Source: Halothiobacillus sp. (GTDB lineage Bacteria > Pseudomonadota > Gammaproteobacteria > Halothiobacillales > Halothiobacillaceae). Taken from it: a stretch of DNA of 48,180 nt. Every line of letters begins with the position of its first letter. Within the stretch, counting starts at the first letter, position 1. Position numbers and translations under genes: made by a program. The DNA lies in the NCBI GenBank assembly GCA_020061705.1, contig JAGUXT010000052.1:1-48180 (forward strand), read 5' to 3'. Shown one piece after another: positions 36,099-45,318 of this stretch. The notes under the pieces are model-generated. The model had not been told where the DNA came from, did no database searches, and saw only the letters and a program-made list of their open reading frames with translations.

Positions 36099-36124
36099 GC
36101 GTGTGCGCTTTTGTGAGCAACAAA

Positions 36125-36150
36125 AAAGCCGCACAAGGCGGCTTTGATTT
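36125..36150 (+). terminator. Terminator after ribD
   Basis: AAAGCCGC/GCGGCTTT, an 8-bp stem with a 5-nt loop, followed by GATTT; A-rich upstream side. The following 36146-36245 is host or junction DNA with no gene that I can see. Confidence 0.75.
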
Positions 36151-36249
36151 GGATTGATTTTTAGTAAAACTGAATTAAATCAATCAGTTATGTTATAGGT
36201 GCTATCACATCACTAGGCGGAATGCGGGTTGCGGCGTGTCGATTTCAGA

Positions 36250-36272
36250 TATACCCCCAAATATACCCCCAA
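36250..36272 (+). repeat. Left-end TATACCCCCAA repeats of element 2
   Basis: Two copies of TATACCCCCAA, 12 bp apart. Related repeats occur upstream of the integrase at 45138-45198. Candidate integrase arm-type sites. Confidence 0.6.
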
Positions 36273-36288
36273 AAAGTTACGCACAGGC

Positions 36289-36310
36289 TTATCCACATGA
36301 CTTATCCACA
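36289..36310 (+). promoter_or_regulatory. Pair of perfect DnaA boxes
   Basis: TTATCCACA at 36289-36297 and again at 36302-36310, same orientation, 13 bp start to start. Both match the high-affinity R-box exactly. Confidence 0.65.
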
Positions 36311-36410
36311 GACGTGATATTTTCAGCTTCACAGTCAGCGCGGGGCTTTTTATCTCAGTGGCATGAATCGCGCCTTAGCATAAAACATGCCACCTAGTTA
36401 AAAACGCCCG

Positions 36411-36467
36411 CTATATTTCGTTCGGAGCGGTCATTGCGGATTGGTCGCTGCATTCGATATTGATCAT
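36411..36467 (-). CDS. Possible 18-residue leader peptide
   Basis: A short frame MINIECSDQSAMTAPNEI preceded by AGGAG at a six-base distance. It lies just outside the closing stem of the structured RNA region. Good ribosome site but no homology that I can cite; it could be chance. Confidence 0.25.
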   Translation of the reverse strand: MINIECSDQSAMTAPNEI

Positions 36468-36481
36468 GGTATGCTCCTGAT

Positions 36482-36634
36482 TAGTTGGCGTGACACGGTG
36501 ATATTCTCCCGGCCGTAGCACCGCATTCGTGCGGGAGCGTCATGTGGGGTTTCCGGTGAAAACCGGGTGGGAGGCCTCGCCGCCAACTCAAGCTTCCCCC
36601 TTCTTCAGCAGTCGCTGTACCTCACGCTCCCGCA
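36482..36634 (+). ncRNA. Structured RNA resembling phage C4 / P4 CI antisense RNA
   Basis: An 8-bp closing stem (36483-36490 with 36581-36588, AGTTGGCG/CGCCAACT) encloses two perfect hairpins: CCGCA-TTCG-TGCGG at 36521-36534 and CCGGT-GAAA-ACCGG at 36553-36566. UUCG and GNRA loops favour the plus strand. An extended -10 (TGGTATGCT, 36467-36475) would start transcription at about 36482, the foot of the stem. The 11-mer at 36530-36540 is exactly complementary to 36624-36634, as expected of an antisense RNA acting on a target in the same transcript. C4 RNAs regulate phage antirepressor genes; the class assignment is by analogy. Confidence 0.45.
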
Positions 36635-36654
36635 TGTCCTAAACATCGCAGACA

Positions 36655-36680
36655 ACAAAAAACCCGGCACATGGCCGGGC
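36655..36680 (-). terminator. Terminator of the element 2 operon
   Basis: CCCGGC/GCCGGG with a 5-nt loop (36663-36679), followed on the minus strand by TTTTTTGTT. It lies just after the Mor-type gene and ends the long leftward operon. Confidence 0.8.
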
Positions 36681-36709
36681 TGGGTTGGTGGGTACGTGGT
36701 GGGGGCGGT

Positions 36710-37123
36710 CTAAAGTGGGTTGGCTGCTTTCATTGCCTTGCCCCTTTGCAGGTAGTACAAAACTTGCCGTCTTGATTGCCGCGTGGCTTCCACCATTTCA
36801 TCTATGCTCTTTCCCTTGCGCCTCAAGTCCATGATGAAGCGCACGTTAGCTTTAGATATGGCCTGCTTGCATGTGGGAATTTCAATGTATGTTCCCCCAT
36901 ACATACCAATCATCTTTAGGGCGGCATCCTCCCCAGCAACGGCGGCGATTGCCTCAAACTTTTGCCGCCCCCCTTGCTCGTTGTCAGTCCCAAGCGGGAC
37001 GTGAATCCGCCTCCCGCAAAATGCTTCTTGCAGCTTCATAGCCGCTTCATAGCCTATTTGGCTAATCAGATACTTTAGGCTTTCCGGCAAGTCACCTTCT
37101 TGAACGTCTCGAATCCCAATCAT
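36710..37123 (-). CDS. Mor-type (Mu middle operon regulator) transcription activator
   Basis: 137 residues with the Mor/C fold: LPESLKYLISQIGYEAAMKLQEAFCGRRIHVPLG, then the intercalating beta strand region GGTYIEIPTCKQAISKANVRFI and a C-terminal helix-turn-helix (KGKSIDEMVEATRQSRRQVLYYLQRG). Mor activates middle or late phage promoters. It is the last gene of the element 2 operon and overlaps the previous gene by 4 bp. In an element without late genes, the target may be a helper-phage or self promoter. Confidence 0.85.
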   Translation of the reverse strand: MIGIRDVQEGDLPESLKYLISQIGYEAAMKLQEAFCGRRIHVPLGTDNEQGGRQKFEAIAAVAGEDAALKMIGMYGGTYIEIPTCKQAISKANVRFIMDLRRKGKSIDEMVEATRQSRRQVLYYLQRGKAMKAANPL

Positions 37124-37479
37124 CGCGCCCCCCTTATTTGTTCTACTTGCTTGGCTAGCTTTTCCAATTCGCGCATACCTTCAAAAAACTTAACTAGGTG
37201 TAGCGCCTCCATGCTCTCCATCTCGCCATTTATCACCCTTTTGGTGACTTCGCTTATTAGCTCTGTCATTGTCTGGCTGCTTATCGGCGGCCTCTCATTC
37301 ACGGCTGAAAGCGCAGGCAATGAGCGGTCTAGCAACAGCTTGGCGGCTTGCACGTCACCCGCTAAAGCCATTTCGTAGAGTTTGGCAAGGATAGGGGGCA
37401 GGGCGCGCCTGATTGCCGTCCTTAGCTTTTGGGTATCGCTGGCATTGACTGCCATGTTTTTGCTGATACCCCTAGCCAT
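37120..37479 (-). CDS. Phage-type small hypothetical protein
   Basis: 119 residues from the ATG at 37477-37479 (MARGISKNMAVNASD). The longer frame from 37500 lies inside the RuvC-like gene. Helical: LRTAIRRALPPILAKLYEMALAGDVQAAKLLLDRSLPAL resembles the DNA-binding/oligomerisation segment of small phage proteins of the DUF5681 type. The C-terminal 30 residues form an amphipathic helix. Function unknown. Overlaps both neighbours. Confidence 0.6.
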   Translation of the reverse strand: MARGISKNMAVNASDTQKLRTAIRRALPPILAKLYEMALAGDVQAAKLLLDRSLPALSAVNERPPISSQTMTELISEVTKRVINGEMESMEALHLVKFFEGMRELEKLAKQVEQIRGAR

Positions 37480-37954
37480 GCCGCGCCCCCCACGATGCAA
37501 TCAGCACAGCGTCACCACGATCATGACGCGCCTGCTTGCCTTGGAGGAATGGCCGGGCGGTTGGGTGGAGTCGAACAGCAGCGGCTAGGCTGGCATTCTT
37601 TTCTGCACCTGCTGCGATTCCTGCCAGCCGTCGCCATGCGATAGGCGAGATGCGCATCATGGGTAGATGTGCCGCTGTCACCAAAGCCTCGATAGCGCCT
37701 ATGTTGCGACCGAAGGTATGCGCTCCCGTCTTGGAGTCAGTGGGTCGTGCACCAACAAGCTCAACAGCAACCAGGCGGGGGGTGGGGTGTGTGTTGAGTA
37801 GCTCCATGAAGCTCACAGCGTCAACGGATTTACGTTTGCCTTCAAGCTCAACAGGCAGGTCGGCCACGTCCAACACCTCGCCTGTGCTGGCATCCATCCA
37901 ACACAGCGCACCAGCTAGGCCGGGGTCAATGCCCAACACAACGGCGGCGGTCAT
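37472..37954 (-). CDS. RuvC-like Holliday junction resolvase
   Basis: 160 residues with the RNase H-like fold of phage RuvC-type nucleases: VLGIDPGLAGAL (catalytic D10), VAVELVGARP (catalytic Glu), and HDRGDAVLIASWGARHG (C-terminal catalytic Asp). It probably resolves branched DNA during element replication or recombination. The start overlaps the stop of the 37951-38193 gene by 4 bp. It is slightly shorter than cellular RuvC, as phage versions usually are. Confidence 0.82.
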   Translation of the reverse strand: MTAAVVLGIDPGLAGALCWMDASTGEVLDVADLPVELEGKRKSVDAVSFMELLNTHPTPRLVAVELVGARPTDSKTGAHTFGRNIGAIEALVTAAHLPMMRISPIAWRRLAGIAAGAEKNASLAAAVRLHPTARPFLQGKQARHDRGDAVLIASWGARHG

Positions 37955-38193
37955 GTTGCCACCTCCGACTCGTTGTCACTGGTGGCATCCAACACGGTCA
38001 CGCCAGCAAGCATGTGCTCCACCACTTCCAGCGAGTGCGCCGGGCGGCATGACATGGTTTCACGCGCCACACGTCGCAATGCCTGTGCTTGGCTGGTGGC
38101 TTTGACAAGGCGGATTGGAGCAAAGCCGCTTTTTTGCATAAAGCCGGTATCGTCCTGCATGACAACGTAAATCCGAGTGCTTGACTTCTTCAT
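37951..38193 (-). CDS. Hypothetical protein of element 2
   Basis: 80 residues beginning MKKSSTRIYVVMQDDTGF. The middle (PIRLVKATSQAQALRRVARETMSCRPA) resembles small phage proteins that modulate host functions, but I cannot assign a family. Overlaps both neighbours by 4 bp, so it is real operon content. Confidence 0.55.
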   Translation of the reverse strand: MKKSSTRIYVVMQDDTGFMQKSGFAPIRLVKATSQAQALRRVARETMSCRPAHSLEVVEHMLAGVTVLDATSDNESEVAT

Positions 38194-38909
38194 GCTGCAT
38201 CCTCCATCACGGCATCCTCATAGACCATGCGCAGCCAGCAAGCGCGTGTGGCCACCACGTCGCGCATGTTGTACTCAGCAATCTGCGCATACTCTCCGGC
38301 CTGCCACATATCGAACACATGACCGCCATCCATGCCCATTGCTTTAGGTGACGGAATGCCCAAGGCCTTACACAGACGGTCTAGGCTGATTCGCTGCCCG
38401 TACCCTGCCCACATGGTCATTGTGTCGCCATAGTCGCGCCCAAGGCGGGCTGCGGGGCTTGGGATGAATGACGGCGGGATGATGTTATGCACCCATGCAC
38501 GCCGACGGATAAACCCTAAATCGAAGTCGATAGAGTGGCCGATAACGTAGCTGGGTTCAGGGAACTCCGGGCGGCTATTGATGCGCTCAAATTCATCAAA
38601 GGCCGTGCGCATCTTGTCGAATGCGAACTCCAAAAACACTGCTTCGTCCTGTTCAAGCGGTCGGACAATCACGGCGGGCGGATTGGTATCCATCGCCCAA
38701 GCAATCGACACAATTTCACCCTCAGCCGCGTCTAGTGCCTGTTTGCGGTAAGCGTCCTCAGCGGCCTGCTCCCCCTGTTCTGCCCACCATGCAGCAATCG
38801 TGTCCTCCTTCTTGTAGTTGCCGGGCGGCTTGATACCCGCTTTGGCGGCTTCACGCGCGCCGGGTTGTTGGCTGGGTATAGTTTCAATATCTAGGTAAAT
38901 TCTTGGCAT
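38190..38909 (-). CDS. DEDDy 3'-5' exonuclease (PolB-exonuclease-like)
   Basis: 239 residues. Exo I is IYLDIETIP with D7 and E9, Exo II is YVIGHSIDFDLGFIRRRA, and Exo III is AQIAEYNMRDVVATRACW with the Tyr and Asp of the DEDDy class. This matches the family of predicted 3'-5' exonucleases related to the DNA polymerase B exonuclease domain, common in phages. It probably trims 3' ends in replication or annealing. Twelve bases separate it from the SSB-like gene upstream. Confidence 0.82.
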   Translation of the reverse strand: MPRIYLDIETIPSQQPGAREAAKAGIKPPGNYKKEDTIAAWWAEQGEQAAEDAYRKQALDAAEGEIVSIAWAMDTNPPAVIVRPLEQDEAVFLEFAFDKMRTAFDEFERINSRPEFPEPSYVIGHSIDFDLGFIRRRAWVHNIIPPSFIPSPAARLGRDYGDTMTMWAGYGQRISLDRLCKALGIPSPKAMGMDGGHVFDMWQAGEYAQIAEYNMRDVVATRACWLRMVYEDAVMEDAA

Positions 38910-38921
38910 GGTGTTGTCTCC

Positions 38922-39542
38922 TTAAAATCCAATGTCATCATCAAACGCTTCACCGTTGGCGGGTGACGTGGGTGCGGGTTTGGGTTTGTCAGGTTCGCCC
39001 CATCCTTGTGCCGCCTGATATTCCGGTGACGCTGCAATGGTGGCTTGGAGGCGTTCTCCGAGCGTGTCGTAGATGTTCCAATCGGGTTTGCTCAAGTCAA
39101 AGAGCTGCAACTCGTTCACGCCTTCGGGCTTGGGCATTCCCTTTGGCAGTGGCATGACCGAAGCAATGTTCATGTACGTTTTGCCGTCGCGCTCGCTCTC
39201 GGTGGCGTTCAACAAGCACGACGCGCCCAGCAGTTTCTTCACGTCATATCCTGCGCGAATCTCATCTTCACTTAACGCGCGACCGCGCCATTGATTGATA
39301 AAGGCGCGTAAGGCTGCTTTTTCTCCGAGTGACGCTGTGAAGCGGCGGCTGATTGTGAACGGCTTACCGTCCTGCATACGTTCATCACCCAACAATTCAA
39401 AGCTCAATAGCAGCTTGCGCGCCTTGGTCGGCTTGCCTTGGTAATCGCCTGTTTGCGTGCCTAAATCAACCAGGCGGTACAGGCGGGCGGTGTGAACTCC
39501 GGCGGGTGCTGATTCAAATGTCTGGGATGCTGAAATAATCAT
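38922..39542 (-). CDS. Putative phage single-stranded-DNA-binding protein
   Basis: 206 residues. An N-terminal beta-rich part (HTARLYRLVDLGTQTGDYQGKPTKARKLLLSFELLGD) has the look of an OB-type fold found in phage proteins that coat single strands. The chain ends in a disordered Pro-rich linker and the acidic tip EAFDDDIGF, closely resembling the DDDIPF tail by which SSB recruits partner proteins. Placed between the TubC-like gene and the exonuclease. The assignment rests on the tail and context rather than on a recognised OB motif. Confidence 0.65.
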   Translation of the reverse strand: MIISASQTFESAPAGVHTARLYRLVDLGTQTGDYQGKPTKARKLLLSFELLGDERMQDGKPFTISRRFTASLGEKAALRAFINQWRGRALSEDEIRAGYDVKKLLGASCLLNATESERDGKTYMNIASVMPLPKGMPKPEGVNELQLFDLSKPDWNIYDTLGERLQATIAASPEYQAAQGWGEPDKPKPAPTSPANGEAFDDDIGF

Positions 39543-39982
39543 GATGCTGATTTCCTATGAGGTGGTTTGGCTTGGATTTTCTCGGTCTGGGTCTCGGTCT
39601 GGTTCGGTCGTAAATCGGTTTGGCTGGCATCCTCAAAGGCGCAAGCGGCATGAAAGGCAAGGGTTAGCGGCTCACCTGATTGAACTCTGTGCAGGAAGTT
39701 TTCACCGCCCCCAGCGGTGCGGAATAAGCAGCTATCAACCAAGTGACCGCTGCGCACATGAACGGCGCGGCTGGGTATATCCGGGTCAACACTCCAGCCC
39801 TCGGGGTGGCTGGTGTAATCGGCGGACACCAATCTTTTCAGCGCGGGCAAGTTGGCGCGGATGTTGGCGCGGTCGGGGTCTGTCAGACGATTGCCGGGCG
39901 CAACCAACAGGCGGCCATCCTCACCAAGCCGAACGTCAAAATCACGGTCATGAAGGTTTTGCAGCAGGGTGAAGGCAGTCAT
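39539..39982 (-). CDS. TubC-N-domain protein, homologue of the element 1 protein
   Basis: 147 residues. Residues 1-50 (TLLQNLHDRDFDVRLGEDGRLLVAPGNRLTDPDRANIRANLPALKRLV) match the TubC N-terminal docking-domain family, which here is a phage/plasmid accessory domain. The C-terminal half (HPEGWSVDPDIPSRAVH, DSCLFRTAGGGENFLHRV, ACAFEDA) is shared with 21424-21876 in element 1. The ATG overlaps the helicase stop (TAATG). Function unknown; it follows the helicase in both elements. Confidence 0.75.
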   Translation of the reverse strand: MTAFTLLQNLHDRDFDVRLGEDGRLLVAPGNRLTDPDRANIRANLPALKRLVSADYTSHPEGWSVDPDIPSRAVHVRSGHLVDSCLFRTAGGGENFLHRVQSGEPLTLAFHAACAFEDASQTDLRPNQTETQTEKIQAKPPHRKSAS

Positions 39983-41553
39983 TAAAATGACTCCGGGCTG
40001 GGTTCGCCTTCGGGGTGTATCTCTCCCGCTACCCTGTTTTTATCCGCAACTCCGCAACTTTTGTCACTTTCCCCTTGTAATTCAATGGGTTGAGTGGTTG
40101 CGGATGTTTTTCCGGTTGCGCAACTTTTCGATTTATCCGCAACCTTTAGGGCTGTGTCGGTTGCGGATGTGGCCTCTGGTTGCGCAACCTGTTTTTTATC
40201 CGCAACCTTAAAACCTGAATCAGAACAATGACTTGCGCTAAAAGTTGCGTGGTTGCGGATAATTTCGGGGGTTGCCGGGTGAAGGTATCGGCTGAATGCG
40301 TCGGTGAATTTTTCCAACTCGTAAGCCTTCAACGTGCGGCCGCTCACCTTGGCGTCCTTGCTCTTGATACCGAACTCGCCCAACTTTTTAGCGAGCTGTC
40401 TCTGAGTAATCGGGTTGCCCCGGTTGTACGTTGACCACGGTGCTTCCCCATCCTCGGAAAGTTCGCGCACCAACTCATCTGAAGTCATGCGCGTCCTGAT
40501 AGTGCGTCCAAATGCGTCACGAATATCACTGAGCAACTCAGCGGCATGTGACGGCTCGGTCTCGCCCTTCGCGTTGATCTTGAGCAAGGCTTGACGCGCC
40601 ATGTCCGGCCATCGCCCTCCGACAATATCGGCGATTGCCAGCAACGGCTCAGCATTGTCTTGGGCGCGGTCGTTCAACGCTTCGGGCAACGCAGGCCGGG
40701 CATGTCGCACCGAGTGGGCATGGTCTAGTGCAAACCTCGACACCTTCGCTGCCAAGCCTTCAAACAGTCCTGGGGGTGCATGTCGCAGACGTTCGACGGC
40801 TTCGTGTGGCAACTTGCGGCGCAGCTCAAGACGGATGCACCTATCCATAAGCGTTTCAGGCAAAACACCAATGCCGGATATGCACTTAGCGCCCCATGTA
40901 CTGAAGCGTGTCGGTGTGTGGTCATCACCTACCGAACGGATGACATAAGCACTTTGGCGCGTGTGGCCTGAGTTGATGACACCGCGTAACTCTTCGTTCT
41001 CTTTCATCCACGCGTCAGCCTCATCAAGCATCAGTGTCGGGCGGTGCGCTTCGATAACCCGGTACGTGGCGGCGGGTGAAATGCTTGATGCGGCCAATGC
41101 ACGGCATGACAATCTTCCGATCAAGTCGAGCAACTGCGTCTTGCCGCATCGTTTCTCCGGCGCGGTAATGACTGCCAGCGGGCAAACCTGAATTTCATCA
41201 ATGAACCACGTCATCACCGCCCAAAGCGTTGCAGCTATGGCCGTTTCAGGCTCGCACACGATGAAGCGGCGCAAGGTGTGCAAGATGTCGTTTAGCAGCT
41301 CTTCACCGATCACCTCGCCGGGATACGGTTCCACCTCTGGGAAGAGTCCGTTATCTGTCGTGGAGGGCTTGGACGCGGCCTTAACTGCGTCATCCAAAGC
41401 TGAAACACGAATGCCAAGGGCGGCGGCTTCGGCTTCACGCGCCTGCTCATAATCGAGTCTGGGAAGTTTTGCCAGACGTGCGACGGCGGCGTGAGCATCT
41501 TCAGGAAGTGGCGGCGGGAGGCCTTCCCTCTGGATAACCTTGTCTTCGATCAT
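39982..41553 (-). CDS. DUF3631-domain replicative ATPase/helicase
   Basis: 523 residues from the ATG at 41551-41553, which overlaps the upstream stop as ATGA. The ATPase core has Walker A APEKRCGKTQLLDLI and Walker B TLMLDEAD, then a sensor region INSGHTRQSAYVIRSVGDD; DUF3631 covers the rest (DDHTPTRFSTWGAKCISGIGVLPETLMDRCI). The family acts as phage and plasmid replicative helicase or primase-helicase. The last about 85 residues are low-complexity, with recurring VAD and SAT triplets, because they are the translation of the repeat array at 40042-40260. It sits where element 1 has an unrelated RepA-like ATPase. Confidence 0.85.
   Translation of the reverse strand: MIEDKVIQREGLPPPLPEDAHAAVARLAKLPRLDYEQAREAEAAALGIRVSALDDAVKAASKPSTTDNGLFPEVEPYPGEVIGEELLNDILHTLRRFIVCEPETAIAATLWAVMTWFIDEIQVCPLAVITAPEKRCGKTQLLDLIGRLSCRALAASSISPAATYRVIEAHRPTLMLDEADAWMKENEELRGVINSGHTRQSAYVIRSVGDDHTPTRFSTWGAKCISGIGVLPETLMDRCIRLELRRKLPHEAVERLRHAPPGLFEGLAAKVSRFALDHAHSVRHARPALPEALNDRAQDNAEPLLAIADIVGGRWPDMARQALLKINAKGETEPSHAAELLSDIRDAFGRTIRTRMTSDELVRELSEDGEAPWSTYNRGNPITQRQLAKKLGEFGIKSKDAKVSGRTLKAYELEKFTDAFSRYLHPATPEIIRNHATFSASHCSDSGFKVADKKQVAQPEATSATDTALKVADKSKSCATGKTSATTQPIELQGESDKSCGVADKNRVAGEIHPEGEPSPESF
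40042..40260. repeat. Element 2 mirror-symmetric iteron array (putative origin)
   Basis: Six copies of the 9-mer ATCCGCAAC alternate in orientation: plus at 40042, 40135 and 40198, minus at 40097, 40160 and 40252. Two copies of the palindrome GTTGCGCAAC lie at 40115 and 40179. All members are arranged symmetrically about position 40151.5; successive 9-mer start distances are 55, 38, 25, 38 and 54. The repeats lie inside the 3' end of the helicase gene. The pattern indicates cooperative protein binding, most likely a replication origin. Confidence 0.75.
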
Positions 41554-41978
41554 GCGGCAACCTCCCACATGGGAAGCGTTCCCAATCCGACAAACAGCAC
41601 CTTGCGCGCTCCGTCACGCAGCAAGGCGCGGGCTGTCGCCTCTAAATGAGCTTGGCTTGCGTTACGGTTAATCAGCAGCACGGGCTGCGTTGCCAGCTTG
41701 CACACGCTCCAATCCAGCAAGGCCGGGTCTTGGTATTCGGGCGCTAGGACGGCGGCGCGGGTGTCATACATCCAATCCCAAACATCACGCCCGGCATGAA
41801 CAAACAGCGTGCCGAATCCGGCAATCTTGGTTGCCATGTATGGCGCTAGACGGGCGCGGGCGGTGCGTGCGTTGGGCGGTTGCGGGCGGCGTGCTGGTGC
41901 GCTATTGTTGGCGCGTTGGTTGCTCGCCAGCACATCGCCCCCGTTCACTCCGGGGGCTTTTTTGTGGGCGGCGTTCAT
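41550..41978 (-). CDS. Conserved protein shared by both elements, unknown function
   Basis: 142 residues, homologous over about 100 residues to 22852-23220: ARTARARLAPYM, AGFGTLFVHAGRDVWDW, DTRAAVLAPEYQDP, DWSVCKLATQPVLLINRNAS and LRDGARKVLF. The N-terminal 30 residues are low-complexity and not conserved, so the real start could be further in. Overlaps alpA upstream and the helicase downstream by 4 bp each. No known catalytic motif; the Trp-rich centre and conserved INRNA are notable. Confidence 0.75.
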   Translation of the reverse strand: MNAAHKKAPGVNGGDVLASNQRANNSAPARRPQPPNARTARARLAPYMATKIAGFGTLFVHAGRDVWDWMYDTRAAVLAPEYQDPALLDWSVCKLATQPVLLINRNASQAHLEATARALLRDGARKVLFVGLGTLPMWEVAA

Positions 41979-42214
41979 GCCCGCACCCCGGCCTTACCGT
42001 CTAGCAGTTTGCGGGCTTCTTTGTAGATTGCGCCGGGGTTATTGGGTAGGTCGGCAAGCCATTGATTAACGTCATGCTCAAACCATGCCGAAGCGCGGGC
42101 GGATAGTTTGACCGGGGGCGGGAATTTGCCTTCTTGGATAAGGCGATAAATGGAGGAACGGGAAAGGCCGGTTATCTCAATAACGGCGGGAAGGCGTAGG
42201 GCTTTGTTGGTCAT
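41975..42214 (-). CDS. AlpA-family MerR-like transcriptional activator
   Basis: 79 residues: MTNKALRLPAVIEITGLSR then SSIYRLIQEGKFPPPVKLSARASAWFEHDVNQWLADL, followed by a C-terminal extension of about 20 residues not found in the element 1 copy. It heads the long leftward operon of ten overlapping or closely packed genes. The inverted repeat at 42214-42245 covers its translation start. Confidence 0.9.
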   Translation of the reverse strand: MTNKALRLPAVIEITGLSRSSIYRLIQEGKFPPPVKLSARASAWFEHDVNQWLADLPNNPGAIYKEARKLLDGKAGVRA

Positions 42215-42245
42215 TGCTGGCTGCTCTAGGAGTGAGTGCCAGCAA
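42214..42245 (-). promoter_or_regulatory. Inverted repeat covering the alpA ribosome site, element 2
   Basis: TTGCTGGC (42214-42221) and GCCAGCAA (42238-42245), 16 bp apart, identical in arms and spacing to element 1 although most of the loop bases differ. Conservation of arms but not loop argues for a selected RNA or protein-binding structure. Confidence 0.65.
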
Positions 42246-42339
42246 GGTTAGGGATTGAATTTCACCCTGTAACGGGCTTATTTTTGTGCAAAACGCACCC
42301 AAAAAAGGCCGGAATTGTTCGGGATTTAAGCATTTTTGC

Positions 42340-42939
42340 TCAAAATTTAAGCGTTATATCCTCCCTGTTTAGCCAGTTTTTAACAGCATCCCTGCTTACA
42401 TGGTCGCCTATCGCGGCCTGAATAATTAAAACCCAATCAGATTCCGTTAACTCTAGCGGTTTGCTGTATGGGGTTTTCCGGTACTGCATTGACTTAAGGC
42501 TGTCATGAAAAAAACGCGCCCAATCCTGCCAGTTAGACTTTTGGAATCTGTTGCCTTTTTCAATGAATATGCGCTCTAAATGATTTTCTATAATGTCTAA
42601 CTCATTGATTAGCTCGTCGATACTATTTTCAATAAGCCCAAGAAACTCTTTTGCCTTGGCAATGTGCATTAGCGCTTTCTTGGCGTGTGGCTTGTTCCTT
42701 CGCCTTCTTTCCCTCGCCTCGCTTGATTCTCCGCATACATAATCAGGGGTGACGCATAACGCTAAAAAAACATCACTTGCGGCGTTGTATTTTTCATCCT
42801 CGTTTAATGTTTCAATCCATTCATCAAACACGGGGGCGGCTTGAATTATCGTCCGTGTAAAATCCTTGGCTTTGCCTGCTTCATCCCATGAATAGGCCTT
42901 CCGCTCAACTCTCGCAGCTAAGTAAGACGGTTTATCCAC
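42340..42939 (-). CDS. Hypothetical protein, element 2 cargo
   Basis: 199 residues; not recognised. Soluble and largely helical, with a basic stretch RERRRRNKPHAKK and a coiled-coil-prone middle (FLGLIENSIDELINELDIIENHLERIF). The C-terminal WVLIIQAAIGDHVSRDAVKNWLNRE may be a small helix-turn-helix. Lower GC than its neighbours, like the small gene upstream that it overlaps, which suggests a separately acquired two-gene cargo unit. Confidence 0.6.
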   Translation of the reverse strand: MDKPSYLAARVERKAYSWDEAGKAKDFTRTIIQAAPVFDEWIETLNEDEKYNAASDVFLALCVTPDYVCGESSEARERRRRNKPHAKKALMHIAKAKEFLGLIENSIDELINELDIIENHLERIFIEKGNRFQKSNWQDWARFFHDSLKSMQYRKTPYSKPLELTESDWVLIIQAAIGDHVSRDAVKNWLNREDITLKF

Positions 42940-43138
42940 GGCTTTTTAGCTCCAATTCATGCAGCTTGTCAGATAGTAAGTCAGCAAAAAAGGCGGCTGA
43001 TTCTGATAGGTTTATCGCTATATTTTTTTCCTCACATTCATCTCTTATGGTGTAACCCCCCGTAAGCATGGCGCTTGCATTTGAAAGGCATTTGATGCGG
43101 TTGGCTAAGATTTGAATATCGTTAAAGTCTTGGTTCAT
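42932..43138 (-). CDS. Small hypothetical protein, element 2 cargo
   Basis: 68 residues from the ATG at 43136-43138, which has AAGGAG eight bases upstream; an ATG two codons earlier is too close to that site. The peptide is helical, with NRIKCLSNASAMLTGGY and FFADLLSDKLHELELK. It overlaps the next gene by 8 bp, so the two are probably translated together. Function unknown. Confidence 0.5.
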   Translation of the reverse strand: MNQDFNDIQILANRIKCLSNASAMLTGGYTIRDECEEKNIAINLSESAAFFADLLSDKLHELELKSRG

Positions 43139-43170
43139 GGTCATGTCTCCTTGGGTGGTGTGGGCTGGGG

Positions 43171-43494
43171 TTACGGGGTGGTGTCTTCGGGCTTGAATGC
43201 CAAGGCCGCGCCCAATCGCATAGCAGGGGGGCGCGGTGGCTCGCTTGGGGGCGTGGGTGTGTCTTCGGTGCTTTTGCGGCTCGCTGGCTCAATCACATAG
43301 GCATCATGCAGGCGCTTAATCTCGATCAGCAGGCCAAGGTAGTGACCCGCCCACATGGGGACGGGTTCGCTATCTTCGGTTGTGCTCCAGCGGCCTACCG
43401 CCGATCTGCTTACCCCGGTTGCGCGGGAAAAGTCGGACATATTCCAGCCTAGGGCGGCTAGATTGGCTTTGAACTCTTCAACGGTCATCCGCAT
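43171..43494 (-). CDS. XRE-like helix-turn-helix regulator of element 2
   Basis: About 107 residues from the ATG at 43492-43494 (MRMTVEEFKANLAALGW). Helix-turn-helix: MSDFSRATGVSRSAVGRWSTTEDSEPVPMWAGHYLGLLIEIKRL, a Cro/C1-type domain without an obvious protease domain. The tail is Pro-rich and disordered. It is the best candidate for the element's repressor; it lies between the integrase and the cargo genes and reads leftward. Confidence 0.75.
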   Translation of the reverse strand: MRMTVEEFKANLAALGWNMSDFSRATGVSRSAVGRWSTTEDSEPVPMWAGHYLGLLIEIKRLHDAYVIEPASRKSTEDTPTPPSEPPRPPAMRLGAALAFKPEDTTP

Positions 43495-43830
43495 AAATTG
43501 TCCTCGCGTGCGTGTGAGGCTGGATTGCTTCACGGCCTAAAGTCTAATCTTCCCGATAAAATAAAGCAAAGTGGGTATTTCTTACAAAAGTGGGAAAGTG
43601 CTATTTAACATATTACCCATTATGCGCAGTTATTTTTGGCGGTGGGAAAATGAAGTGTTCCACGGCCTGTTTTATGGGTTGAAGTGGGAAACCGCGTTAG
43701 AACGCCATTTGCGGGGGCGGTTTTCGCCTGTTTTGGCGTGAATTTGAGGCGCAAAGGCCATAAATCCCCGTGAAACATCTCGCACACGCTCTGCGCAATA
43801 ATTATTGAACCGCGTGTTTTCATCGCAGGG
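43495..43830. other. 336-bp region between regulator and integrase: likely regulator promoter/operator
   Basis: No convincing gene. Just upstream of the regulator start are direct repeats AAGTGGG (near 43568 and 43588) and an inverted partner TTACCCA near 43612, in AT-rich DNA suited to a promoter. A small frame at 43620-43856 overlaps the integrase stop and looks like a shadow. Confidence 0.4.
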
Positions 43831-45123
43831 TTAAGCGGCTTGGGTGAAGCTGGCATGAATGACGTTCTTGGCTTCGCGCAATTCGTCCAAGTAATCCGCC
43901 CACACTTGCATCATGCGCTTGCGCTCTGTCAGGTGTTTGGTGCGGTTGTAGGCGCGGCCTAGTGGGTCTTTAATCTGGTGGGCAAGCTGCAACTCGATAG
44001 CGTCACGGTTGAAGCCATGCACTTCATCCAGCAGCGTGCGTGCCATCGCTCTAAAGCCGTGTCCTGTCAGTTCGTTTTGCGTATCAATGCCAAGGCGCTT
44101 GAGCGCGGCGTTGACCGTGTTGGCGGACATGGGGCGGCTGTCAGTGCGTGCGCCGGGGAAAACGTATCTGCCGCCCCCAGTAAGCGGCTGAATCTCTCGC
44201 AGGGCGGCTATGGCTTGTTTTGCCAGTGGCACGATGATTTCCACGGCGGTCTTGTTGCGGGTCTTGGGCGGGGTGTAGCGCAGCTCGCAGGCTTCAAAAT
44301 CAATGTCAGCCCATTGCATAGCACGCAATTCTCCCGGTCGGATAAACAGCAGCGGCGCAAGGGATAGGGCGCACTTGGTCAGCACCGAACCGTTATATGT
44401 CGCCATCATGCGCAGCAGCGGCGCTACGTCCTTGGGTTCGGTGGGGGCGGCAAAGTGTTTTGGGCTGGGTTTGGGTATCAGTGCGCCACTCAGCGCCGGG
44501 CATGGGTTGTACGTTGCCCGGCCTGTGGCGACGGCGTAGTTCATCACCTGGCTGATATGGTGTTTGGTGCGGTGTGCGGTTTCAATCGTGCCGCGTGCTT
44601 CAACACGGCGGATGATCTCCAACACCAGCGGCGCGGTGACGGCATCGGCGGGCAGGTTGCCAATGTAGGGGAATACATCACGCTCAAGCCTACCCATAAC
44701 CTTTTTCTTGTGGGAATCCGCCTTGTTTGCCATGTGGTTTACTTCCCACTCCAAGGCCACGGCGCGGAATGAATCCGGTAAGGCTCCACCGGCCTGCAGC
44801 AGCCTCTCCACCTCAGCGGCTTGTATCTGCGCTTGCTTGGCTTCGGATAGCGTAACCTTCTCAGTCTTGCGCAACTCAGCAGGGTCTATGCCGTTGGCTA
44901 TGAGCTTGCGGGCATCGTCACGGTGTTCCCGTGCTTCCTTTAAGCTCACTTGGGGATACACGCCCAAGGCCAATAATTTTTCTCTACCCCCAATGCGGTA
45001 TTTCAATCGCCAGTATTTGGAGCCGTTCGGATTGATTAAGAGGAACATGCCCTTTTCATCACTCAGCTTAAACGGCGTTGTGGCGGGCTTTGCTTGACGT
45101 ATGAGGGTATCTGTCAGCGGCAT
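43831..45123 (-). CDS. Tyrosine integrase of element 2
   Basis: About 430 residues from the ATG at 45121-45123 (MPLTDTLIRQAKPATTPFKLSDEKGMFL), with AAGGA upstream; the frame to 45219 is leader. The N-terminal DUF4102 domain has LLINPNGSKYWRLKYRIGGREKLLALGVYP. The catalytic residues appear in RPGELRAMQWADID, HGFRAMARTLLDEV and LGRAYNRTKHL. P4-type integrase; its right-hand neighbour is tRNA-Met, about 120 bp away from the leader, but no tRNA-Met duplication is seen on the left. Confidence 0.93.
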   Translation of the reverse strand: MPLTDTLIRQAKPATTPFKLSDEKGMFLLINPNGSKYWRLKYRIGGREKLLALGVYPQVSLKEAREHRDDARKLIANGIDPAELRKTEKVTLSEAKQAQIQAAEVERLLQAGGALPDSFRAVALEWEVNHMANKADSHKKKVMGRLERDVFPYIGNLPADAVTAPLVLEIIRRVEARGTIETAHRTKHHISQVMNYAVATGRATYNPCPALSGALIPKPSPKHFAAPTEPKDVAPLLRMMATYNGSVLTKCALSLAPLLFIRPGELRAMQWADIDFEACELRYTPPKTRNKTAVEIIVPLAKQAIAALREIQPLTGGGRYVFPGARTDSRPMSANTVNAALKRLGIDTQNELTGHGFRAMARTLLDEVHGFNRDAIELQLAHQIKDPLGRAYNRTKHLTERKRMMQVWADYLDELREAKNVIHASFTQAA

Positions 45124-45137
45124 GGTGGTACGTCCTT

Positions 45138-45198
45138 GGGGGTACGGAAAAACGGGGGTATCAGCGCTAGGCCATGTACCCCTATTTATACCCCCCAA
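45138..45198. repeat. G/C-run repeats upstream of the element 2 integrase
   Basis: GGGGGTA at 45138-45144 and 45154-45160 face TGTACCCCTA (45175) and TATACCCCCCAA (45187-45198) in opposite orientation. The plus-oriented pair matches the left-end repeats at 36250-36272. Probably integrase arm sites that also overlap its promoter. Confidence 0.55.
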
Positions 45199-45238
45199 GT
45201 TGCCGGGCTGCAATAGCACGATATGGGATGCTATAGGC

Positions 45239-45275
45239 GTAAAAAAACCCGCAAACCTTATTCTGGTGCGGGTTT
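45239..45275 (-). terminator. Terminator of tRNA-Met
   Basis: AAACCCGCA/TGCGGGTTT, a 9-bp stem at 45245-45275, followed on the minus strand by a run of Ts. It sits about 45 bp downstream of the tRNA. Confidence 0.8.
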
Positions 45276-45318
45276 AGTGGTTTTGTTAGTACCGCTTGGG
45301 ACGGTAAAAAACTTAAAA

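Follow-up and report, generated by a model that had tools for sequence, protein, structure and literature searches.

What does a mirrored set of DNA repeats do inside the coding tail of a helicase gene? The window (the whole stretch of 48,180 nucleotides that was analysed) carries such a set, a mirror-symmetric iteron array and probable replication origin, at 40042–40260, centred at about 40151.5, with homologous arrays in relatives. It occupies the last ~90 codons of the gene for a 528-aa MCM-like AAA+ helicase of the DUF3631 family (PF12307; gene at 39985–41568, minus strand). The initial annotation had placed the array inside the helicase gene and read it as an intragenic origin bound by an initiator of the element. 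The array is indeed within the coding tail, at the 3′ end of the gene and past the last folded domain rather than in mid-gene.

The array, its gene and the inserted element

Six exact copies of ATCCGCAAC were found in strictly alternating orientation, at 40042–40050 (+), 40097–40105 (−), 40135–40143 (+), 40160–40168 (−), 40198–40206 (+) and 40252–40260 (−). The spacings between their starts are 55, 38, 25, 38 and 54. The palindrome GTTGCGCAAC occurs on the left at 40115–40124 and on the right at 40179–40188. The outer pair has its midpoint at 40151 and all other pairs at 40151.5. All of this agrees with the initial annotation, as does its statement that the intervening sequence is not a palindrome: the window spacers are at most weakly palindromic, with 19 of 63 positions pairing, which is near chance. 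It had overlooked that each outer end also carries a tandem copy, namely CTCCGCAAC with one mismatch at 40050–40058 (+), 8 bp from iteron 1, and a partial copy, GTTGCG, at 40244–40249 (−). These truncated copies form a 23-nt inverted repeat (I2) that is 91% complementary. With a strict site caller, the mirror-partner test gave p = 0.03 for the window.

The repetition goes well beyond what the protein requires. The top 9-mer of the window tail (both strands) occurs six times, while four was the maximum among 20,000 recodings of this protein with synonymous codons. The tail holds 43 inverted 8-mer pairs and the recodings at most 11. The iteron copies are translated in different frames (VAD; TSAT; IRN), which is not expected from a protein repeat. 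Elsewhere in the 2.27 Mb genome, GGTTGCGGAT was found as 13 scattered singletons. The AT content is 0.50 in the array vs. 0.43 in the core, which is weak for an AT-rich melting region; the highest AT in any 20 bp was on average 0.72 in arrays and 0.63 in the core.

The PF12307 match of the helicase reached 160.1 bits against a curated cut-off of 24. In the structure model (pLDDT 93), the predicted MCM-like AAA+ core comprises residues about 69–345 (model residues 50–326; 40534–41364, minus strand), and the fold search gave its best Z of 18.4 to Methanopyrus MCM over 241 residues of the core only. A C-terminal winged helix (residues about 360–428; 40285–40491, minus strand) was assigned from the secondary structure of the model; the model and the covariation described below make it the proposed iteron-binding domain. 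A profile search of PDB sequences with DUF3631 gave no match up to E 0.1. The protein is thus MCM-like by predicted fold, a similarity of fold and not a demonstrated membership of the MCM family by sequence.

The gene lies in an inserted element of ~9.2 kb (approximate extent 36100–45318, roughly 36.1–45.3 kb), because the site is empty in a relative of the same genus: there, ribD is found about 266 bp from the same tRNA-Met, with no insert. Judged from the genomes compared, the ribD/tRNA-Met site is an integration hot spot. Upstream of the DUF3631 gene are alpA (41975–42214, minus strand) and the tyrosine integrase gene beside tRNA-Met (43831–45219, minus strand). Downstream are the genes of a phage replication protein of the NGO0469 family (38922–39542), a PolB-like 3′–5′ exonuclease (38190–38909) and a RuvC-like Holliday junction resolvase (37472–37954), all on the minus strand. 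No 12-bp direct repeat (attL/attR) was found between the flanks, and an Rfam search over the element found only the tRNA. Near the left end of the element (36289–36310), the DnaA box TTATCCACA occurs twice without mismatch, the two copies lying 13 bp apart. A protein encoded at 36710–37123 matches phage late transcriptional activators (phrog_836); the element has no evident structural genes. Another genome of the genus (G749:C32, L146) carries a different segment of ~5.4 kb between ribD and the same tRNA-Met.

Repeats and mirror geometry in DUF3631 relatives

Relatives were sampled at 80 loci from genome contigs and eight from viral contigs, with further ones from genome searches. For the viral contigs, a single-protein scan returned no relatives and the alignment was used as the query instead. 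The GC skew of the annotated Phipami28 record was left out of account, since this record is Mu-like and has ABC-transporter genes of probable host origin.

Most sampled relatives carry an array at the same place; its sites lie in both orientations and follow the form TGTNNCGGAT, with a word specific to the locus. The initial annotation had asked for such an alignment and had named a shared protein tail with no conserved repeats as the outcome that would speak against it. The opposite was seen: inverted repeats beyond synonymous recoding were found in the tails of 62 of 78 relatives. Inverted 8-mer pairs numbered 13.9 per tail on average; the corresponding means were 1.0 after synonymous recoding and 0.6 for the core of these genes. 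By this statistic, a significant array was absent in 16 of 78 relatives, and no array was seen in L117, L121 and L123.

At nine loci, the open frame stops at the array or within it, with further repeats following as untranslated DNA (L058, L066, L080, L094, L025, L033, L082, L098 and L100); in the first three, the stop TAA falls within an iteron. Two circular Streptomyces plasmids, whose only evident replication genes are those for DUF3631 and a primase-polymerase, carry a mirror array of GTAGCGGA that straddles the stop and runs on beyond it. Outside the arrays, the locus words were at chance level (26 found, 26.7 expected). The exceptions are L029 and L074, where a partial second array of the locus's own word lies about 2.4 kb and about 4.9 kb, respectively, upstream of the main array. 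As the tail repeats exceed those of recodings, continue past stop codons and stay at chance elsewhere, the array is, on this sequence evidence, a DNA element rather than a protein repeat. A site of another type, GTAGCGGAT, was noted near the partial second array of L074.

The arrays consist of many sites over 130–240 bp, in most cases arranged as mirrored halves. In 60 loci, each end is formed by a tandem pair of sites; the offset is 8 bp in 51 of the left halves and 57 of the right halves, and the span is exactly 133 bp in 23 of 60 loci despite differing words. The loci are related to each other, so these counts and those given below are not independent. The left half and the reverse-complemented right half have a common consensus, including a GG-TTT spacer box, and this holds for distant loci too. 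Their agreement was 0.387 within a locus and 0.339 across loci (control: 0.252). Spacer positions paired at 0.41, compared with 0.24 when the centre was shifted. A mirror partner was found for 63% of the called sites, compared with 42% for shuffled gaps, leaving about 37% unpartnered. Mirror symmetry is a trait of the family that is imperfect in many members.

Covariation of the iteron word with the helicase wing

For the variable dinucleotide of the iteron word (NN), the strongest covariation among 310 protein columns was with helicase residues 412 (z 18.1), 405 (13.8) and 413 (10.3). In the model (residues 386 and 393–394 there), they are predicted to sit in the two strands of a wing hairpin (40330–40356, minus strand). 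At the first N, A is associated with V412, T or G with T412, and C with R or N at position 412; P413 pairs with the TG word. Independent sister pairs agreed with the link between V412 and A at the first N, on average in 5.6 of 6 pairs and with none against (median p 0.031), the test comprising just six independent pairs (with starred branches). When solely relatives of <70% identity were used, NN was predicted correctly from residues 405, 412 and 413 in 44% of cases, compared with 19% from the nearest relative and 38% from the best of 300 random column triples.

Loci fetched later mostly fit this code: V412 was found with GTAG (L109 and L110), T412–P413 with GTTG (L112), and R (L116) or N (L113) at 412 with GTC. 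L115 is a poor fit, with a mixed TG/AG array although it has V412. The window helicase itself has T412–L413, not the P413 of most TG loci. T412–L413 is loosely predictive of TG, and L413 was also found with AG, TA, TC and AA words. The window word is therefore not sharply predicted. By a parsimony count, the word changed ~40 times on the tree.

Since the sites and the DNA-reading residues change together across about 80 relatives, it is very probably the DUF3631 helicase itself that recognises the array within its gene, via the wing of its winged helix. As it likely recognises sites within its own gene, the initiator and the probable origin would be inherited as one piece. The initial annotation had proposed other proteins for footprinting, the one encoded at 41550–41978 and AlpA. 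The former had no tblastn match in 91 related loci, the latter was matched in 38 of 91, and the word tracks the helicase wing. Neither is supported as the binder by these comparisons. What stands of the earlier proposal is an origin-like intragenic array with an element-encoded binder, which is well supported; the binder is most probably DUF3631.

Some loci deviate in their words. From the RYL codon onward, L114 has two successive arrays with different words, GTGACGG/GTAACGG and then GTAGCGG/GTCGCGG; this has the look of an older specificity persisting beside a newer one. The array of L113 is a CG/CA hybrid, and this locus and L115 with its mixed array were possibly caught in the middle of a change of specificity.

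The origin reading and its alternatives

The array is very likely the replication origin of a PICI-like integrated element of ~9.2 kb, on which DUF3631 would bind as two rings, at the half-origins. This reading draws on the MCM-like fold, on RepAM as a DUF3631 initiator, on PICI origins located 3′ of rep and on Cch2. The origin would share sequence with the 3′ end of the gene that encodes its initiator helicase. This DUF3631 protein would bind the TGT-TG-CGGAT iterons physically, using the wing of its C-terminal winged helix, a domain encoded directly upstream of the array. Two oppositely facing rings would be loaded, one per mirror-image half-origin; the number of rings and the direction of replication are what we infer for this arrangement. 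The VAD/SAT-rich protein tail would be a side effect of translating across these sites.

Other functions have to be weighed against this. If the array were an autoregulatory operator, DUF3631 would control transcription, its own level or a plasmid-style copy number, and replication would start elsewhere. Helicase binding would account for the covariation equally well, and the partial second arrays of L029 and L074 lie upstream. However, the main array occupies the gene's 3′ end, not a promoter, the locus words outside arrays are only at chance level, and the many mirrored sites exceed the usual need of an operator, which makes this function improbable. Autoregulation may still exist on top of origin function. 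There is likewise only a small chance that the selected form is a long hairpin (ssDNA, RNA or cruciform), for example of a rolling-circle or lagging-strand origin, in which the mirror positions result from stem pairing. As a single strand, the window array does fold into one long, nested and very stable hairpin (DNA z −9.2, RNA z −12.3), spacers pair above the shifted control, and RepAM is a predicted rolling-circle initiator. Yet the spacer pairing is mostly due to the box common to both halves, more than a third of the called sites have no mirror partner, and pairing in the window spacers is near chance. Moreover, the DUF3631 model shows an MCM-like AAA+ core with a winged helix, and neither Pfam nor the fold search revealed an HUH nuclease.

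Sites for a host factor or another factor of the element (DnaA, AlpA or the 41550 protein) are very improbable. By eye, TTATCCGCA looks like the DnaA box, but TTWTNCACA was found in none of the arrays tested and 59 times outside arrays. The word covaries with the helicase wing, and the distribution of AlpA and the 41550 protein among the related loci also argues against them. The combination of direct repeats with DnaA boxes by which iteron plasmids are recognised was not found in the arrays, whose sites are mirrored and inverted. Finally, selection could act on the tail as a repeated low-complexity protein, with the DNA repeats arising from tandem peptide duplication. VAD/VTD and GVADK-like peptide motifs are in fact common to many relatives. 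This was rejected as scarcely credible, because the copies occur in opposite orientations and several frames, the repeats are lost in synonymous recodings and arrays extend beyond stop codons.

Known systems resemble the proposed origin in part. RepAM, of the same Pfam family as the window helicase, is the DUF3631 initiator of the actinobacterial AICE pMEA300 and was listed as a predicted rolling-circle initiator in a 2011 survey, the available part of which does not describe word–wing covariation or a mirror half-origin layout (PMC3218068). The rolling-circle label is at odds with the MCM-like ring fold predicted here. In the open-access literature checked, DUF3631 occurs in one paper, and RepAM is the sole member of the family linked there to autonomous replication. 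The pMEA300 origin was reportedly placed inside repAM, with an 8-bp inverted repeat, by te Poele et al. in 2006.

Gram-negative PICIs have the order int-alpA-rep-ori, with the ori just 3′ of rep and two iteron sets, and their plasmid maintenance was tested (PMC6092414). The window has the same order of int, alpA, rep and ori and the same single transcription direction. It, too, has a pair of iteron sets at the 3′ terminus of the initiator gene, in its case inside the coding tail. In SaPIs, the iterons are recognised by the C-terminal domain of the initiator (PMC7581432). The SaPI/PICI origin is intergenic and has an AT-rich melting region and Pri-Rep proteins, whereas the window origin would overlap the coding tail, is strictly mirrored and goes with DUF3631. 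SCCmec Cch2 binds iterons directly downstream of its gene through its C-terminal domain and forms oligomers consistent with hexamers and dodecamers (PMC7581432). It is likewise a mobile-element helicase with iterons at the 3′ side of its gene, but of a different family, with three direct 5-nt iterons and an intergenic putative origin. For RA3, oriV was mapped to the 3′ end of repB, the gene of the initiator (PMC9455977). RepB of this IncU plasmid is an initiator different from DUF3631.

The initial annotation had pointed to lambda ori. The likeness holds for iterons in the initiator gene and is otherwise loose; SaPI/PICI Rep-ori and SCCmec Cch2-ori are closer. In lambda, the ori iterons are translated as part of the initiator O, as in the window gene. 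Lambda O, however, is not a helicase and binds via its N-terminal part. Its iterons form direct repeats, and the AT-rich region lies apart from them.

There are known precedents for an initiator helicase whose iterons lie directly past its gene, and an origin embedded in the coding tail of the initiator is known in outline from lambda O and, reportedly, pMEA300. Judged against the open-access literature checked, the family-wide mirror half-origin in the tail and the word–wing code appear to be new. They offer dozens of natural initiator–origin pairs with a readable protein–DNA code. Origin specificity and plasmid-type incompatibility become testable by changing two or three residues and two bases. 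In many Proteobacteria, DUF3631 can now be given a likely role, and doubt is cast on describing RepAM as a rolling-circle initiator. Genes with such tails would otherwise still be annotated as having low-complexity C-termini. A wider generalisation is tentative, and we rate its chance as somewhat below even: DUF3631 proteins may be widespread bacterial MCM-like initiators of mobile elements that act head to head on mirror-image half-origins and take their specificity from three wing residues, with the adjoining winged helix and origin forming one co-inherited, fast-switching cassette inside the gene. Detached DUF3631 winged-helix fragments, with or without array remnants, were observed at L131, L133 and L135, in genomes that also hold a fuller copy.
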